From positions 62,001 to 126,000 of IMG/VR virus record IMGVR_UViG_3300045971_000344: a DNA stretch of 64,000 bases; one strand, given 5' to 3'. The notes under the pieces are model-generated. The model did not search any database. It was not told the origin of the DNA and saw only the letters and a program-made list of their open reading frames with translations. The stretch is from a virus. Shown here in pieces: positions 11,071 to 54,123 of this stretch. The first letter of the stretch is position 1. Each line of letters starts with the position of its first letter. The position numbers and the translations under genes were made by a program.

Positions 11071-12681
11071 ATGATACTGAGCAAAAATCTTGCTGGAATA
11101 ATTTCCAGCATTCCAGGGCTGTGCCAGAGGTTATCCAGCTTATCAGAGAAATGGAATACAGAAAGAGCAGAAAAGATAAAAGAAGAGATAGATAGCATAA
11201 TTCCGTTGTTAAGAAAAAAGGACTTTGGTCCCATAAAGAAAGGTCTGCAACATTGCAACTCTACTCTAGCTGGATGCATAGCAGGTAAGGTAGAGCAATT
11301 ACTAACTAAGTCTAAGTGTAAGTCATACATAAGAAAACTAGGGTTAACTATAACGCCCATCCTTGAGGCTATTCATGCTCTTGAAATAGATACGATACCA
11401 GAAAAAGAAGAATTACCTACGATTAGCTTTAAGCCCGGCGTTGACCTTTTAGACCAATCCATTCAAGAACGCTTATCCCTTCATACGTTAGACGATAACG
11501 GAAATCCTAGGCAAAGTGCTAATAAAGATCTTTCTACAATGGAACAGATTTGGGAAGAAGCAGAGTATAAAAATATATTACGCCAAGAGTCTTTAAATGC
11601 TTGGGATAAAAAGTTCTATGGACCCTTGGATATGGCTTATGAAAAATATAAATCCCAGATTGATAAAATACCTCGTTTCTTAAATAAACCTGCAGAGTTG
11701 TTTAGGGTGCCTATCGTTCCCTATTCCGCAAAAGAAGTAATTTTTAGAGATAAAGAACTTGCTAAGACAGATGTAGAATTGGTCTTTATAGCGGGCTTTC
11801 CTATATTTGAAAATCAAATTGTTTTGGCAATAAATACAAACAGATTTCAAGATGAGATGCTAGGGATACAGGCATACGAGTTTGAACGATCTAAGCACAG
11901 TTCTACTTTAGCTAATGCAAGAGATAAATATTTACCTATAAGAAAAATGGAACTCCAAATAAAAGAATATCAGGAAGAGCTTTCGTTCTTAACTGAACCT
12001 TTAGTAGAAGGTACCGGTATAAACAAAGAGGATGCACAAGCAGTAAGAACACTGAGATCTTCTTGGATTAACGCTGAGATTGAAAAATTGATTGTAAATA
12101 TAAACGCTAGAAAGGTCAAATATGCTGACCTGTTTAAGGAATTGGAAGTAGGTACAGCTAAGCTACGCGAGATATCAAAAGGTAAACCAAAAGATAGCGG
12201 AGACAGTGTAAAGCGCACGCTGGAAACAGCTGAAGAATACTTGAAGATAATAAATAGTAAGCTATCTTTTGAAGAACAGCTTGGACTTGTTACAAATACA
12301 CCATATCCTTATGGGTATGGAACAACGTATTTTTGGTTAATGAAGGATTCTAATCTAGCAAAGTGGAACGTAAATTTATCTTTCAACAGAGAAAAACTAA
12401 ATATATCTAGTTGGTCATTTGTAAATCCACCTGAAACAAAATCTGCTTTTGAGCACCTTCAAGCGTTTCAAACAGAGTTGCAAAACTTCGTACTGTCCTC
12501 AATTCGGAACGGTTTAACCATTGACCAATGTTGTTTGAAGTTAAAGGTGTATCTAAAGAAACGCCGTAAGACCTATGGCAATGAACATCGTGAGCTCGTA
12601 AAGAAAATTTATTCGGACTTTTCAGATAGTGGGATTAAGCGCGTTGACCTTAAGGCTCCAAAGGTGAGGTTTCTTGTATGA
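11071..12681 (+). CDS. Hypothetical protein, paralogue B of a tandem pair
   Basis: ATG at 11071 is favoured over the GTG at 11050 because GAGGGG precedes it by 6 nt; 536 residues. It shares with the 9267-10682 product FYGPLDMAYEKY versus FYGELNKQLDEY, the IAGFPIFENQI block, a central coiled coil and the YFWLMK motif. It also has an N-terminal helical extension of about 100 residues that paralogue A lacks. No enzyme motif seen. First gene after the sigma70 promoter. Confidence 0.8.
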   Translation: MILSKNLAGIISSIPGLCQRLSSLSEKWNTERAEKIKEEIDSIIPLLRKKDFGPIKKGLQHCNSTLAGCIAGKVEQLLTKSKCKSYIRKLGLTITPILEAIHALEIDTIPEKEELPTISFKPGVDLLDQSIQERLSLHTLDDNGNPRQSANKDLSTMEQIWEEAEYKNILRQESLNAWDKKFYGPLDMAYEKYKSQIDKIPRFLNKPAELFRVPIVPYSAKEVIFRDKELAKTDVELVFIAGFPIFENQIVLAINTNRFQDEMLGIQAYEFERSKHSSTLANARDKYLPIRKMELQIKEYQEELSFLTEPLVEGTGINKEDAQAVRTLRSSWINAEIEKLIVNINARKVKYADLFKELEVGTAKLREISKGKPKDSGDSVKRTLETAEEYLKIINSKLSFEEQLGLVTNTPYPYGYGTTYFWLMKDSNLAKWNVNLSFNREKLNISSWSFVNPPETKSAFEHLQAFQTELQNFVLSSIRNGLTIDQCCLKLKVYLKKRRKTYGNEHRELVKKIYSDFSDSGIKRVDLKAPKVRFLV

Positions 12682-19838: not shown

Positions 19839-19981
19839 GTGGTGTATTACGGTGCATCACTAGCGACACCTGCCCAATGTTAGATACAGTTGTACCCTTA
19901 GTGTCTTGCACATCCAATAGGGAACTTCTCCAAACAAAGACATTTGGATACAAGTGGTGCGACAACCCGGAGAGACGGGTT
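19839..19981 (+). ncRNA. Structured RNA motif, copy A
   Basis: About 143 nt. A 5' hairpin (from GTGGTG at 19839) is followed by four blocks shared in order and spacing with copy B: GCGACACCTGCC (19863), CCCTTAGTG (19895), AAGTGGTGCGACA (19952) and a hairpin with invariant loop GAGAGA closed by AACCCG/CGGGTT. The closing stem differs completely from copy B yet still pairs, which is covariation. A TCCAAA/TTTGGA stem lies inside. It ends 28 nt before the glycosyltransferase start, so it may be a leader, a processing signal or an independent RNA. Confidence 0.7.
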
Positions 19982-20009
19982 AACTAAATGAGTGAGAGTG
20001 GGATGGGGT

Positions 20010-21386: not shown

Positions 21387-21544
21387 GTACGTGCTGCATA
21401 AACCGCGGAGTTGCGTACTGCGACACCTGCCTGACACTAACGTAGTATAATGTTTTCCCTTAGTGCTCGTAGCACGTGCAGGGGCATTTATCCACCAATG
21501 AAAGTGTTTAGATAAAAGTGGTGTGACACGCTGGAGAGACAGCG
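21387..21544 (+). ncRNA. Structured RNA motif, copy B
   Basis: About 158 nt. 5' hairpin GTACG/CGTAC (21387-21418), then GCGACACCTGCC (21420), CACTAA/TTAGTG stem containing CCCTTAGTG (21457), AAGTGGTGTGACA (21516), and the terminal hairpin CGCTG-GAGAGA-CAGCG (21529-21544). The block order and the 18-nt distance from block 3 to the loop equal copy A. CACC in block 1 is complementary to GGTG in block 3 in both copies. Ends 25 nt before a tRNA. Confidence 0.7.
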
Positions 21545-21564
21545 ATAAGCATTTAGGCTATAAT
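21536..21564 (+). promoter_or_regulatory. Possible promoter before the tRNA pair
   Basis: GAGACA, 17-nt spacer, TATAAT at 21559-21564. The -35 is weak and overlaps the last hairpin of motif B, and the -10 is only 6 nt from the tRNA 5' end. Confidence 0.3.
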
Positions 21565-22854: not shown

Positions 22855-22877
22855 AAATTCTTAGATACCCTTAGAGT

Positions 22878-23387
22878 TTGATTTTAGTGAGTAAAGTCTG
22901 CACGATGGTAGTTATGTATCCTAGGGGAACATCGTGGTGAGTGAGGCCCTCTTATAAGTCCCACAAGGGCATAGAGGCGCAGGGGATTGCCGAAGTGGAG
23001 AAGCCCAGGAGCAGGCAAGGATGTATGCGTGAAGTAGTATAAGTACTTGAGACGTGGCTACAAAATGAGAAGCCGGAGTACTGAGAAAGCGTGTGCGAGG
23101 GTATCCAACTAGACAGGACTAACCGTAAAGTAAGGCCTAACGATAAGGCAGCGGCGAACAGTAACTATGCACAAAACCTGTACTCTATTTGTTTATGGGG
23201 AGCATAGCGAAGATAACGGGTACTTGAGAGTGTGCCGAAACTCTCCTTGATTCGGATGGGTGCATTATTAGCGTTTACAACTTCTAGCGAATTTAAGTCC
23301 TAGGATGGGACGTATATTCAAGTGCGTGTGCTTGCGCTCTGATGCACTGCTTGTGGTGGTTTGAGTCCACCAACTCACTAAAATCAA
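22878..23387 (+). ncRNA. Large (~510 nt) ornate structured RNA
   Basis: No gene is present. The ends form a perfect 15-bp stem (TTGATTTTAGTGAGT, 22878-22892, with 23373-23387). Inside are several hairpins: CACGATG/CATCGTG; a CTATGC/GCATAG stem; GAGAGT/ACTCTC at about 23225-23244, whose loop CCGAA can also pair with TTCGG downstream (an H-type pseudoknot); AAGTGC/GCACT; and a terminal GGTGG-TTTGAGT-CCACC arm (23355-23371) shaped like a tRNA T arm. Size, closing stem, T-loop and proximity to phage tRNAs recall GOLLD and ROOL RNAs, but membership is not established. The transcript probably runs on to the tmRNA. Confidence 0.75.
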
Positions 23388-23418
23388 GATCAAAAATAAC
23401 CTAAAAGGGAGAAACAAA

Positions 23419-23844: not shown

Positions 23845-24257
23845 GGGGGCGTAAAGGTTTCGACTGGCGGTAATAGATATTAGTTGCGCTCGGAGGATGA
23901 TGGTTGGCCTCTTGAATAACCCATCACTTATTAATTGCCAACTTTGCAAATGCAGTAGCAGACAACTATGGTTTTGAGGCTCGCCTCGCTGCCTGAGTTG
24001 TAACAATCCCTACAGAAAATCGTAGGTACGGTAAGTAGTAGATAACATTTGTAGCTACTCGCCGCGTAACAGAAGATGTGGATGGTTAGCCGCCCACTGA
24101 CTAATGAACTCCAGGTGTTGGTCTGGCTAAACACCGACTAGGTGGGAAAGATTTGTCTATTTTGTTAATAGCCACCGAAATACTAAATAGACTATGAGCG
24201 TAGGGACTATATTGAAAAGCTGTTAGGACGTGGGTTCAACTCCCACCGCTTCCACCA
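23845..24257 (+). ncRNA. ssrA: tmRNA (transfer-messenger RNA)
   Basis: Rescues stalled ribosomes by trans-translation with SmpB. The 5' end GGGGGCGTAAAGGTTTCGACTGG and the 3' end GTGGG-TTCAACT-CCCAC-CGCTTCC-ACCA form the tRNA-like domain; the acceptor pairs GGGGGCG with CGCTTCC (two G-U). The internal frame at 23937-23996 encodes the tag ANFANAVADNYGFEARLAA then TGA; the LAA end is the classic ClpXP degron. The ~240 nt after the tag fit the pseudoknot region. 413 nt, normal for a one-piece tmRNA. Phage-borne ssrA is uncommon; no smpB is seen in this window. Confidence 0.95.
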
Positions 24258-24519
24258 ATTTGCTGACCTAGTAGTAACCCGCTGTGTACCTTAATGGGTC
24301 AAAAGTGACCTGGGAGTAGTCTGTAAATAAACCAGATGAAAACACCTATTTACATCTAGGCGATATAGGGCAGAATGAATGGTCGAACGGTCAGTAACAC
24401 TGTTTAACAATCCGTATACCAGGTAGCTAAGTATGGGCAACCTAAAGTGTTGCGCCGCAAAAGGTATACGGAGATATCCTATGGTATCGCTACCATGCCG
24501 GACGGAGCCAAAAAAAATT
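24258..24519 (+). promoter_or_regulatory. Structured spacer/leader downstream of tmRNA
   Basis: About 260 nt without a gene but with at least four stems: GGTCA-AAAG-TGACC; TGTAAATA/TATTTACA; CCGTATACC (24412) with GGTATACGG (24463), perfect 9 bp; and ATGGTA-TCGC-TACCAT (24481-24496), just upstream of the next ribosome site. It may be a leader controlling the next gene or another RNA. Confidence 0.5.
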
Positions 24520-24897
24520 ATGAGTAATGACCTTGTTATTATAGAAGAAGGCATAATGCGAGCCTACCCAAAGTTTGATTTGGCTCGCAATAGAGTGACT
24601 ATCTTCAAGGGTAAAGAGTTTGACATAAATGATTTTACTTGCCTTCAAATGCTGACTAATCATGACCCAGGCGCTGTGGCTATGGTAACTATTGATGGTC
24701 AAGACCTTTGGATCTATTATGATAATGGTGCTCCAAAACGAGTAGTTGGCATCGAAGAACGAAAAGTCTTGTGGGAGAAATATACTGAGTTTATGATAGC
24801 AGTTCGTAGGAAGATGTTACCTGTAACTAATCCAGAACATCCAGATTATGTTGAGCCAAAGCTAATAAAAGAGAGCAAGGTAATCGTTATTAGTTAG
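24520..24897 (+). CDS. Hypothetical protein, 125 aa
   Basis: ATG at 24520 is preferred; the frame stays open to 24433 but that part lies in the structured leader. GGAG lies about 12 nt upstream. Mixed alpha/beta (VTIDGQDLWIYYDNG). Not recognised. Confidence 0.6.
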   Translation: MSNDLVIIEEGIMRAYPKFDLARNRVTIFKGKEFDINDFTCLQMLTNHDPGAVAMVTIDGQDLWIYYDNGAPKRVVGIEERKVLWEKYTEFMIAVRRKMLPVTNPEHPDYVEPKLIKESKVIVIS

Positions 24898-37898: not shown

Positions 37899-38210
37899 AT
37901 GAAAAAGATATTTGAAGTAGAATACCCAGACTATTGTTCATATAACGCTTCGGATATTCAGGAAGCTTTACAGGATGCAACTGGTTGGGCAGTCGCTTTT
38001 ATCGTTAAAGAGATAATAGTTGAGGTGGGAAAATCTGAGTATAAGGAGAATTTGATGAACGCACAGGAATTTAAAGACTGGTCGGATTCATACAGAAAGA
38101 AAAGTTCGTACCACATGATGTGCAAAGTAGATAAAAGAATGATAGACCTACTTATGTCTCAAAGACAAAAGGAACTAAATGAAGAAGAAAAGAGTTTTGA
38201 CAGAAATTAA
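37899..38210 (+). CDS. Hypothetical protein, 103 aa
   Basis: ATG at 37899 follows AAAGGAAAG; the upstream open part overlaps another gene. Begins MKKIFEVEYPDYCSYNASDIQEAL, with a helical C-terminus. Resembles a recurrent phage small protein of unknown function. Confidence 0.55.
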   Translation: MKKIFEVEYPDYCSYNASDIQEALQDATGWAVAFIVKEIIVEVGKSEYKENLMNAQEFKDWSDSYRKKSSYHMMCKVDKRMIDLLMSQRQKELNEEEKSFDRN

Positions 38211-38214
38211 CTAA

Positions 38215-38224
38215 ACTGTAAATG
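38215..38224 (+). promoter_or_regulatory. ACTGTAAATG candidate promoter element
   Basis: Copy of the recurring motif with G in the last place, 23-32 nt upstream of the first stem of the 38.25-38.66 kb RNA. Confidence 0.35.
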
Positions 38225-38246
38225 ATATGTAAATAATAGAGTTGTG

Positions 38247-38662
38247 GACTGTTTACTCCCAAGGACACAGATTGCCAGACGCAGGATTAGATACCCTTCG
38301 ACTAGAGCGGTGTTGGCATAAGAGTAGGCAGTCTGCAAATAGTTGGGTAATTATGGGCGGTCGCCCCGTTCGGTACAGTTAGGAAATAATGAGGAGGGCG
38401 TACTCTGAGAATGTTCAACCCTGTACTAATTACCCATTAGTTGGTGGTTAGTCTAAGTCAAGGACACTAAGAGAACAAGACCAGCGGGGTATAATGGTAC
38501 GTGGGTTAATAACCTGTGGTGCAGTAGTACTCTATGCGGATAGTGTAGAGAAGCGCATAATCTATCCTGACGTATGAATTAGGGGCGCAATGTTCTTATC
38601 AGGTCTTTCCTGCAACACTTACCTTCTCCGAAGATGTTGGTATAACTTAGGCTAACCACCAA
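38247..38662 (+). ncRNA. Second large structured RNA (~416 nt)
   Basis: No gene lies here. Three long-range stems: GACTGTTTACTC (38247) with GAGTAGGCAGTC (38322), 12 bp with two G-U; TGGGTAATTA (38344) with TAATTACCCA (38427), perfect 10 bp; TTGGTGGTTAGTCTAAG (38441) with CTTAGGCTAACCACCAA (38646), 17 bp with one G-U. In the last domain ATGCG (38534)/CGCAT (38554) and GATAG (38539)/CTATC (38562) form an H-type pseudoknot. The first domain contains CAGGATTAGATACCCT (38282-38297), identical to the 790-loop segment of 16S rRNA. It ends just before the ribosome site of the next gene. Confidence 0.7.
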
Positions 38663-38675
38663 ACAAAGGAAATTT

Positions 38676-38990
38676 ATGTTTTTCCATGATATGAACTACA
38701 CAATACCTCAAGAATTTAGACTTCCATGGTTGTTATTTCTTTTGATGTATATTCCATTTCTTTACTGGTTTATTATTCGCGATGGATACAGGAAGTTTAA
38801 ATGGTTGAGGGAAATTCATGAGGTAGGATTTTATAATTGGGTATGGTTTGTACTATATCTAAAACGCAATGAATTTCATCCATCACTGGATAGGATAAAA
38901 ATAGTTGATGGTAGGTATTTATTGGAGGAACGACAGGGCAGAAGACAACTCGCGCATAAAATAGCTTTAAAGTTTGAGGAGCTAAAATGA
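38676..38990 (+). CDS. Small membrane-associated protein, 104 aa
   Basis: AAAGGAAA site directly after the RNA. N-terminal membrane helix (PWLLFLLMYIPFLYWFI, about 13-29), then a charged cytoplasmic part. Function unknown. Confidence 0.6.
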   Translation: MFFHDMNYTIPQEFRLPWLLFLLMYIPFLYWFIIRDGYRKFKWLREIHEVGFYNWVWFVLYLKRNEFHPSLDRIKIVDGRYLLEERQGRRQLAHKIALKFEELK

Positions 38991-41612: not shown

Positions 41613-41921
41613 ATGTATATCTTAACACCACTAATGTCAAGGGGAGAAATTCATATCGCTTCTTGTAAGGTATTCTCATCCATTCTCGAAATTCAAGACT
41701 TTCTGGATTCTGTGGCAAACACATGGGATAAATTTTCTGTATGCCCGGAAGTTATTAAGATAGCCCCAGGAGTAGGGTTAGTAAAAGAGAGTGAGGAGTT
41801 TCATAAAGAATATATCTGGTCGCATAGTTATAACTCAAGAAAGAATAAAAAGCTGGAAGAGCTTAAACAGTACGGTGAGTTTAAACCTCAGGTATTAAAT
41901 ACTTTTGTAGCAAAGGAGTGA
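41613..41921 (+). CDS. Hypothetical protein, 102 aa
   Basis: AAGGAG site. Alpha/beta; the stretch YIWSHSYNSRKNKKLEELKQYGEF is helical. Not recognised. Confidence 0.5.
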   Translation: MYILTPLMSRGEIHIASCKVFSSILEIQDFLDSVANTWDKFSVCPEVIKIAPGVGLVKESEEFHKEYIWSHSYNSRKNKKLEELKQYGEFKPQVLNTFVAKE

Positions 41922-41923
41922 GT

Positions 41924-42430
41924 ATGCCAAGTAAAATAAAAAGAAGACTGGCCTTGAAGGAAGCAATACTTCTATACAACCCCGAAATAGAAGCTACTTT
42001 GGACTCAGAAGAAAGAATAATTGTAGAGGCTACTTCAATTCTTCATCTTTTGAAAAAGAGTAGTCAGCATAATGTAGTAACCTGTGTTTACTGTGGGCAT
42101 GAATATCGAGAAGGTACACCAGCGTGTAAAGCCCAAGAGTTGACGGCTCATATAAAAATCTGTACTGAACATCCAATGAGAGCCTTAGAAGAAGAGAATG
42201 AAAGGTTGAGAGAGGTAATTGATAAGCAGATAATTCTTCCACCTTGTGATTTCTGTGACCGTAAGGACCTGATGCCAAATGACCAAGAAGAAGTAAAACT
42301 TAATTCACATAAAATGATAGCATGTCCTACATGCTACTCCAAGATATGCGATATAATAACCAACCTGGAACTTGAACGTAACATTGAAGGTTATGATTTT
42401 GTTAAACGCGACAGTAAGGCAGGTAAATAG
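41924..42430 (+). CDS. Hypothetical protein with two zinc fingers and coiled coil
   Basis: ATG at 41924 is preferred; the GTG at 41918 overlaps the ribosome site. 168 residues. CVYCGHEYREGTPACKAQ...HIKIC is a phage-type zinc finger (CxxC...C...H..C); a coiled stretch is followed by CDFC...CPTC, a second ribbon. Confidence 0.6.
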   Translation: MPSKIKRRLALKEAILLYNPEIEATLDSEERIIVEATSILHLLKKSSQHNVVTCVYCGHEYREGTPACKAQELTAHIKICTEHPMRALEEENERLREVIDKQIILPPCDFCDRKDLMPNDQEEVKLNSHKMIACPTCYSKICDIITNLELERNIEGYDFVKRDSKAGK

Positions 42431-50681: not shown

Positions 50682-50858
50682 ATGAAGACCGGAATAATAA
50701 CGATAGAACTTGAGCTATATGGATCTGATGAAGAACTAGGTCCAACGGAAATAGATGCCAAGTTAAAGGAACTTCTTAATAAGTTTGAAGACCAATGTAG
50801 GCAGCAATCTTGGGTTAAAGATATTTACGACAGCTCTTACGAAACACAGGAGGACTGA
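50682..50858 (+). CDS. 58-residue hypothetical protein
   Basis: AGGAG site 10 nt upstream. Acidic helix-rich (LGPTEIDAKLKELLNKFEDQ). Not recognised. Confidence 0.5.
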   Translation: MKTGIITIELELYGSDEELGPTEIDAKLKELLNKFEDQCRQQSWVKDIYDSSYETQED

Positions 50859-50860
50859 CC

Positions 50861-51151
50861 GTGAAAGAAATAACTATGGTAATGGTAAAGCAACCTAAGC
50901 TACTAAAAACCTTTTGTGATCTTTGTGGCACAGAGCAAATTGGAGGTACTTGGACTAATGATGGAATAGTTAAGGCTAACCTTGAACGAGAGGTCAAAAT
51001 AAAATATAAGGAACTAATTTCTGACCCAGATGGCGGCGGTGAATCTCATACTTATGAACTTGATATTTGCCCCACTTGTTTCTTGACCAAGGTCAAGCCA
51101 ATGCTAGAACAATTAGGTGCAAAGGTTGAAGTAAAGACCGTAATATTTTAG
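50861..51151 (+). CDS. Zinc-ribbon hypothetical protein, GTG start
   Basis: GTG at 50861 with AGGAGG 8 nt upstream. CDLCG...DICPTC ribbon (CxxC...CxxC); 96 residues. Confidence 0.55.
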   Translation: MKEITMVMVKQPKLLKTFCDLCGTEQIGGTWTNDGIVKANLEREVKIKYKELISDPDGGGESHTYELDICPTCFLTKVKPMLEQLGAKVEVKTVIF

Positions 51152-52788: not shown

Positions 52789-53310
52789 ATGAAAATAAAA
52801 GTAAGTATAGAGACCTCAGCAGGAGGTAAAAAAGGAATTAAATTTTTATTATCAAACGGTGGTAAACAGGTACAATTCAAGAAATTACCTACCAATCATA
52901 AACTAGCTATTTTGGTCTATATGATAGAGTCCGATATGGAAGTTCCAACTGGATTTAAATATGGATCTTCAATAAAAACCTATCTAAATTCCTGTAAAGC
53001 TAATATGGAATTTTTTGACTCTACTTACGGTTATAAAAAGTTTATTATCGCTGATGTTCCTATAAAGGTAATAGAAAAGGTTTTGCTTCCAACTATTGAT
53101 GACCGTCTTAATTCAATTGAAGACTACTATAAATTTTATACTGGAGGTAAAAAATTAGGATCTGAGTATAAAGAACTTGACTGGCCTTGCATAATAAGTG
53201 GGTTTTTCCCTGAAGAAGTTTTTGAAGATGGATGGCATAGGTTTAGCTATTATTTGAGTAAGAAACTTCAAAAAATTCCTTGCATAGATTTTGTAGAACC
53301 GTTTTTATGA
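52789..53310 (+). CDS. Hypothetical protein, 173 aa
   Basis: GGAG site. Lys- and aromatic-rich alpha/beta protein. Not recognised. Confidence 0.55.
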   Translation: MKIKVSIETSAGGKKGIKFLLSNGGKQVQFKKLPTNHKLAILVYMIESDMEVPTGFKYGSSIKTYLNSCKANMEFFDSTYGYKKFIIADVPIKVIEKVLLPTIDDRLNSIEDYYKFYTGGKKLGSEYKELDWPCIISGFFPEEVFEDGWHRFSYYLSKKLQKIPCIDFVEPFL

Positions 53311-53334
53311 TCTAAACTAAAACTGGAGAACCCA

Positions 53335-54123
53335 ATGATATACTATTGTGAAAGCTGTCAGACTGTAAGCAAGGTCAAATTGCTGACCCAACATAAACTT
53401 ACTTGCACTGATAATACGGTAATTGAATTCCAGGATATTCATGATTATACCTCGTACTGGATTGAAGAAGAACAGAAACTAAGATATGAAATTAGTATGC
53501 ACTCGACCATGAGAAAACAGGCAGAGCTTCAATTAGAACGTGCGATTAAGAAAATCCGAAAGACAATGAAGAGTCAAGCACTCAATCTGGAGCAATATTT
53601 ATCAAGGGTCGTAATAAAAGATGAGATTAAGGTCCAATTCGACCAAGAGGATGAAGATATAGAATACAGTCTAGGAGTTAAACCCATAAACTGTCAGGAC
53701 CAAGGTGGTATTCCTATTTATGAGGAGGCTAGTATTGGAGTACCAACATACCTTCCTCCTACCGGACACTGGACGAAGGATATCCAAAACCGAAGCCAAT
53801 ATGAAGGACAAACAGTAGACTCTCGCTGGGTAGAACCTAGACTTCCGGACTTTGATACCATTATGAAAATCGGTAGATCGTGCGGTTACTCAATTGCAAT
53901 ACACGGGTCACTTAAGCGTGATGTAGACCTTATTGCAGTTCCTTGGGTTGATGAAGCAAAAGGTGCTTTGAGTCTTATTCATGCTTTATGTGAAGGCCTA
54001 AATGCTAAACAAATAGGAACTGTTGAAGAAAAGCCGTGGGGACGCATGGCTGTAGTCATACAAATAGATGGTTATTATAAACCTATTGACTTGTCTATTA
54101 TACGAAAAGGAGTACCAGGATGA
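53335..54123 (+). CDS. Zinc finger plus nucleotidyltransferase-like protein
   Basis: 262 residues. N-terminal YYCESCQTV...C zinc motif and coiled segment. The C-terminal part GRSCGYSIAIHGSLKRDVDLIAVPW carries the G-S-x-x-R-D-x-D-L pattern of the minimal nucleotidyltransferase fold and ends with YKPIDLSII supplying a further Asp. Seen in other phages as an uncharacterised protein. Activity unproven. Confidence 0.6.
   Translation: MIYYCESCQTVSKVKLLTQHKLTCTDNTVIEFQDIHDYTSYWIEEEQKLRYEISMHSTMRKQAELQLERAIKKIRKTMKSQALNLEQYLSRVVIKDEIKVQFDQEDEDIEYSLGVKPINCQDQGGIPIYEEASIGVPTYLPPTGHWTKDIQNRSQYEGQTVDSRWVEPRLPDFDTIMKIGRSCGYSIAIHGSLKRDVDLIAVPWVDEAKGALSLIHALCEGLNAKQIGTVEEKPWGRMAVVIQIDGYYKPIDLSIIRKGVPG

Follow-up and report, generated by a model that had tools for sequence, protein, structure and literature searches.

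A probable structured non-coding RNA of three domains, preceded by a promoter-like motif, in the accessory gene region of a large phage

Why does a phage in which spare DNA is scarce (5% of the genome is intergenic) carry 416 nt without a gene at 38247..38662, and is this stretch an RNA in its own right or a part of the gene that follows it? The viral record is 294,944 bases long, with 39% G+C, and the window is the whole stretch of 64,000 nucleotides analysed here, that is, record bases 62001-126000; positions below are those of the window unless the record or another contig is named. The terminase, portal and other genes of the record are distantly like those of the jumbo phages NCTB and PaBG. 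Structural genes lie on the - strand, in the right part of the record, and the + strand of the window carries the replication and nucleotide genes along with small accessory ones. The stretch itself (hereafter the 38-kb RNA) sits within a block of small genes, most of them unrecognised. On its upstream side, a small + strand gene (37899..38210; 103 aa, no Pfam match at cut-off) stops 36 nt before it, and on its downstream side lies another + strand gene (38676..38990), which encodes 104 aa with a hydrophobic N-terminal part and for which we found neither a family nor a relative.

That the stretch contains no gene had already been claimed in a preliminary description, and the claim holds: the longest open reading frame (ORF) within 38247-38662 is 46 aa, the three ORFs tested against Pfam gave no family match, and the six-frame pieces of at least 20 aa are similar to nothing in five phage records. 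The longest stop-free run is 44 codons, against a shuffled mean of 65. Additionally, the G+C content (45.9%) is above the local mean of 38.4% and also above the maximum of 45.4% found among 743 other windows of the surrounding 38 kb; the tmRNA, tRNA and 22.9-kb stretches of the same genome have 44-45%.

The + strand of this non-coding stretch is predicted to fold into three consecutive domains. Domain 1 (38247..38333, +) is closed by stem A, 12 bp in which 38247-38258 (GACUGUUUACUC) pairs with 38322-38333 (GAGUAGGCAGUC). Domain 2 (38344..38436, +) has stem B, 10 bp between 38344-38353 (UGGGUAAUUA) and 38427-38436 (UAAUUACCCA), around a short G+C-rich hairpin and a long irregular stem, and domain 3 (38441..38662, +) has stem C, 18 contiguous bp with one G-U between 38441-38458 (UUGGUGGUUAGUCUAAGU) and 38645-38662 (ACUUAGGCUAACCACCAA), around a multi-branch junction. 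In a fold of 38240-38760, the predicted probabilities for one central pair of stems A, B and C are 0.98, 1.0 and 1.0. According to a strict helix score (a score with lenient gap costs gave no information), the best helix, stem C, is stronger than the best helix of 1000 out of 1000 dinucleotide shuffles and of 706 out of 706 genome windows of this length; for the three best helices summed, one of the 1000 shuffles and none of the 706 windows reaches the same value. The three long stems first described at these positions are thus beyond chance; two of the lengths given for them (12 and 10 bp) are right, and the third, given as 17 bp, is 18 bp.

The + strand also folds better than its complement (-136 vs -114 kcal/mol, with 20 vs 8 G-U pairs). 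The folding energy of the whole region (z = -2.4, or more exactly -2.36) is weak evidence for structure, 17 of 196 mostly coding genome windows being equally low, and such z values do not separate the real RNAs of this phage, since its undoubted tmRNA scores only -1.3. Domain 3 by itself reaches z = -3.0, and one of 200 shuffles is as stable. For domain 1 there is an alternative fold of near-equal energy (-28.8 vs -27.3 kcal/mol), in which 38268-38276 pairs with 38327-38335. The H-type pseudoknot that had been proposed does no better than shuffled sequence, since the best candidate in our search was equalled or beaten by 77 of 300 shuffles; a pairing of 38291-38297 with 38486-38492 (7 pairs) was set aside as too short to count as a pseudoknot. 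What stands of the preliminary description is a large, structured, promoter-driven non-coding stretch, and what falls is its pseudoknot. We conclude that this is a real feature and probably a structured RNA, with folds that are computed from one sequence.

Might the stretch instead be a decayed gene or neutral filler, with stems that arose by chance or through a palindromic insertion? Having no homologue, and having a folding-energy z inside the range of coding windows, it fits such an origin; the strength of stem C, which exceeds all shuffles and windows, speaks against it, as do a G+C content above and not at the local level, six-frame pieces that resemble no gene in the five phage records, a promoter motif at the 5' edge and the little spare DNA that this phage has. 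Taking these points together, we consider decay or filler improbable.

The promoter motif is also what bears most directly on the relation between the stretch and the gene downstream. A phage promoter-like motif, ACTGTAAAT, lies on the + strand at 38215..38223, 32 nt before stem A, in the genome context (T)AAAACTGTAAAT(A)nTA, further examples of which are found in the + strand arm at record positions 12512, 49242, 67261, 276139 and 283294. Genome-wide, there are 19 copies of ACTGTAAAT on the + strand and 2 on the - strand, and 7 of the 19 are intergenic, in a genome of which 5% is intergenic (odds ratio 10, p = 4e-5). In two related records that are dealt with below, G002 and G003, genes are preceded by the motif AAACTGTAAA too. 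The promoter-like sequence noted earlier just upstream of the stretch is therefore backed both by its genome-wide intergenic enrichment and by its recurrence in relatives. The other intergenic copies, together with one copy of a shorter motif, stand 13-93 nt ahead of a start codon, and the distance from the copy at 38215 to the next ATG is 461 nt. A transcript beginning at the 38-kb RNA is favoured by this arrangement, in which the motif is 32 nt from stem A but 461 nt from the start codon.

The chief rival to a free RNA is that the 104-aa membrane-type gene at 38676 is driven from 38215 and has an unusually long, structured 5' leader, the fold of which would set its translation. Stretch and gene are on the same strand with the promoter upstream of both, no intrinsic terminator was found between them, and the Shine-Dalgarno sequence of the gene (AAAGGAAA at 38665) is only 2 nt 3' of stem C; control might perhaps be exerted by the two domain 1 folds of near-equal energy, or by UUUCCU (38606-38611) opposite AGGAAA in the ribosome site. 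Nevertheless, such a leader would be far outside the 13-93 nt seen behind the other motif copies, and this difference favours a free RNA. Moreover, the prediction shows no pairing between the ribosome site and the RNA (probability 0.0), the site folding locally with its own coding sequence, and by our estimate about one in ten stretches of this kind would contain a 6-nt match to a ribosome site by chance. In our judgement a leader is rather unlikely.

Based on the promoter distance, the strand preference, the helices and the lack of coding capacity, we read 38247-38662 as the gene for a free structured non-coding RNA of ~420-430 nt that would be confined to this phage lineage. We further take it to be an accessory RNA that would act in trans, and give this reading as a whole a probability of about one half. 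A further point in favour of a free RNA is that, in G003 too, the motif is followed by long non-coding stretches. The points against a free RNA are that a single sequence provides no covariation, that the folding-energy z is ordinary, that there is no terminator and that the nearest relative is without the RNA.

The transcription, processing and action in trans that we infer would proceed as follows. Transcription would start just behind the motif at 38215, placing the 5' end of the transcript at stem A or a few bases before it, and the RNA would be made alongside the early/middle accessory genes. The transcript would then fold into three domains lying next to one another, each closed by its own helix (12, 10 and 18 bp). 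Since no terminator lies downstream, the 3' end probably comes from processing, which would take place next to stem C; comparable processing is presumed for the tmRNA and tRNAs of this phage, which are squeezed between genes in the same way. Finally, the RNA might be an accessory directed at the host and acting in trans; it might, for instance, bind a host protein or ribonucleoprotein and keep it occupied. This last role we infer from location alone, because the RNA lies in a block of small genes that has no counterpart in the nearest relative.

Is this RNA found anywhere else? Compared with the 4227 models of Rfam 15, the 38-kb RNA gave no match at the gathering cut-off and nothing but partial matches at chance level when E was relaxed to 10, and blastn against GenBank phages at E 10 revealed no homologue. 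In IMG/VR, a scan for a two-part motif found nothing, a scan for GGATTAGATACCCTT gave 92 matches, which is near chance and contains no homologue (of 80 matches inspected, 79 are within long open frames and none aligns past a short stretch), and look-ups with the neighbouring genes and the topoisomerase yielded no homologue either. A Bacteroides contig with the 3'-end pattern of another RNA turned out to be a chance match inside a sugar-dehydratase-like gene. The terminase search led to the records G001 (44.6 kb) and G002 (170 kb), with 67-68% identity, and to two more distant ones; neither blastn nor single-sequence covariance models detected a homologue of the 38-kb RNA in these relatives (G001-G004). 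The relatives found through thymidylate synthase belong to the same lineage again, and no GTDB contig with the terminase was found. G002 is largely collinear with record bases 87-262 kb, with roughly 50% protein identity, and keeps the tmRNA as well as a large RNA at the place where the 221-kb RNA (see below) sits in this phage. Within this otherwise largely collinear arrangement, the genes at record 98-110 kb, around the 38-kb RNA, have no homologue in G002, and the sequenced part of G002 contains no 38-kb RNA by blastn, by reading of its non-coding gaps or by covariance models of domains 1 and 3. As the nearest relative is without it, the RNA is not essential to this phage group. The 38-kb RNA is an orphan, close relatives being absent from the collections searched.

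A mark of GOLLD and ROOL RNAs is assembly into homo-oligomeric cages. Both are large ornate RNAs of phages and prophages, frequently located near a tRNA island, and GOLLD is over 800 nt long (PMC12286853). The 38-kb RNA resembles them in being large, multi-domain, phage-encoded and non-coding, but it matches neither covariance model, even at E 10, is shorter than GOLLD and is not beside a tRNA island (the nearest tRNA is 16 kb off, and the nearest tRNA and tmRNA are at 14-16 kb). In size, G+C content and intergenic position it is like the phage tmRNA (RF00023, 413 nt, window 23845-24257, tag ADNYGFEARLAA), which, unlike the 38-kb RNA, belongs to a recognised family with a tag peptide. No tmRNA model matches the 38-kb RNA, and a tmRNA identity was set aside for lack of a tRNA-like domain with a tag reading frame. 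A group I or II intron was likewise rejected, given the absence of an Rfam match and the position between intact ORFs, and the stretch matches no recognised riboswitch in Rfam. Close parallels in arrangement are the G003 stretches 51132-50778 and 164754-163296 (-), which have the same motif and belong to the same length class; the former also folds better on the strand of its motif, as the 38-kb RNA does. In contrast with this similar arrangement, they show no sequence or covariance-model similarity to the 38-kb RNA.

Within the window there is one more candidate for comparison, the 22.9-kb RNA (22855..23400, +), which is closed by a 15-bp stem. Both RNAs are non-coding, have raised G+C and lie between a stop codon and a ribosome site, and both contain the 12-mer TTAGATACCCTT, which in the 38-kb RNA is at 38287..38298 (+) in domain 1 and whose sole other copy in the genome is at 22861-22872. 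In both of them AGTCTGCA follows 22-31 nt 3' of TTAGATACCCTT, and a 12-mer with a collinear 8-mer occurs in 2 of 4000 shuffled pairs. Read from the sequence, the 22.9-kb copy of TTAGATACCCTT can pair at 11 of 12 positions with GAGGGTATCCAA (23097-23108), some 235 nt downstream, and a T-arm-like hairpin, GGTGGTTTGAGTCCACC, is seen near the 3' end of the same RNA. These two shared motifs, together with a possible downstream partner, GGGUAU, in both RNAs, would suit a divergent sister relationship, that is, one new class with two copies in this genome. Nevertheless, the domain architectures differ (the 22.9-kb RNA has one long closing stem, and no promoter motif was seen for it), blastn between the two gives nothing past a 15-nt match, and the domain 1 covariance model hits the 22.9-kb RNA with 7.4 bits (E 0.19 over 651 bases), in a register that leaves the two copies of the shared motif unaligned. 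With the model out of register and the blastn match so short, the earlier presentation of our stretch as a second RNA akin to the 22.9-kb one is not borne out; we hold a sister relationship to be quite improbable, and a possible element common to both RNAs to be a lead, not a finding.

The same part of domain 1 invites another comparison, since the 16-mer CAGGATTAGATACCCT (window 38282-38297), which overlaps TTAGATACCCTT, is identical to E. coli 16S rRNA 783-798. It could be supposed that domain 1 mimics the 790 loop of 16S rRNA and titrates away a ligand of that loop, for instance initiation factor 3, and the 22.9-kb RNA does carry 11 nt of the same loop. However, two other exact 16-mers to 16S rRNA occur elsewhere in the genome, as do 14- and 15-mers, so that this match is not beyond chance, and by eye the flanking 16S stem is not preserved. 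We have therefore set aside mimicry as anything more than chance and consider it highly improbable.

A broader proposal can be made tentatively: the free, promoter-driven, three-domain RNA may represent a new class of phage RNA that acts in trans in host takeover, and may be one of several unrelated large RNAs of this lineage. No function has been assigned to GOLLD and ROOL, large phage RNAs too, in the years since they became known. If the 38-kb RNA is a true transcript, jumbo phages carry more large structured RNAs than family searches show, and such RNAs can be lineage-specific and located in accessory gene blocks, with a host effect that expression or deletion could test. The phage promoter motif would offer an easy way to look for others.

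Other structured RNA candidates were observed in this phage and its relatives. The 221-kb RNA candidate (record 221370-222420, L013:16370-17420, -; possibly extending to 222700) is non-coding, 1.0-1.3 kb long and folds at z -5.8; its G002 counterpart (L031:3915-5180, +; z -4.5) is in the same gene neighbourhood. Both end in an EGFOA-like module (RF02955) that remains below cut-off (E 1.7e-4 and 0.006), and it may be that a much larger RNA has EGFOA as its 3' end. Structured-looking non-coding stretches with 44-47% G+C and no family match are also found at window 24258-24520, by the tmRNA, and at record 53155-53660 (L007:13155-13660), just upstream of tRNA-Leu; the tmRNA of G002 is at L038:2572-3011 (-). 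In G003 (L042-L054), long non-coding stretches occur at 163296-164775, 41614-42328, 37992-38498 and 50778-51135, some of them behind the same promoter motif, and one G003 non-coding stretch of ~1 kb folds at z -6. Finally, a small RNA family without an Rfam match at E 5 is located near tRNA genes (window 19862-19985 and 21419-21545; G002 L038:4240-4353, -), its core pattern occurring in only three places in the five records. The two phage copies are 69% identical, ACACC pairs with GGTGT, and in the 3' hairpin the loop side GGAGAGAC is fixed while the stem changes on both sides, with 7 double changes between the two copies.
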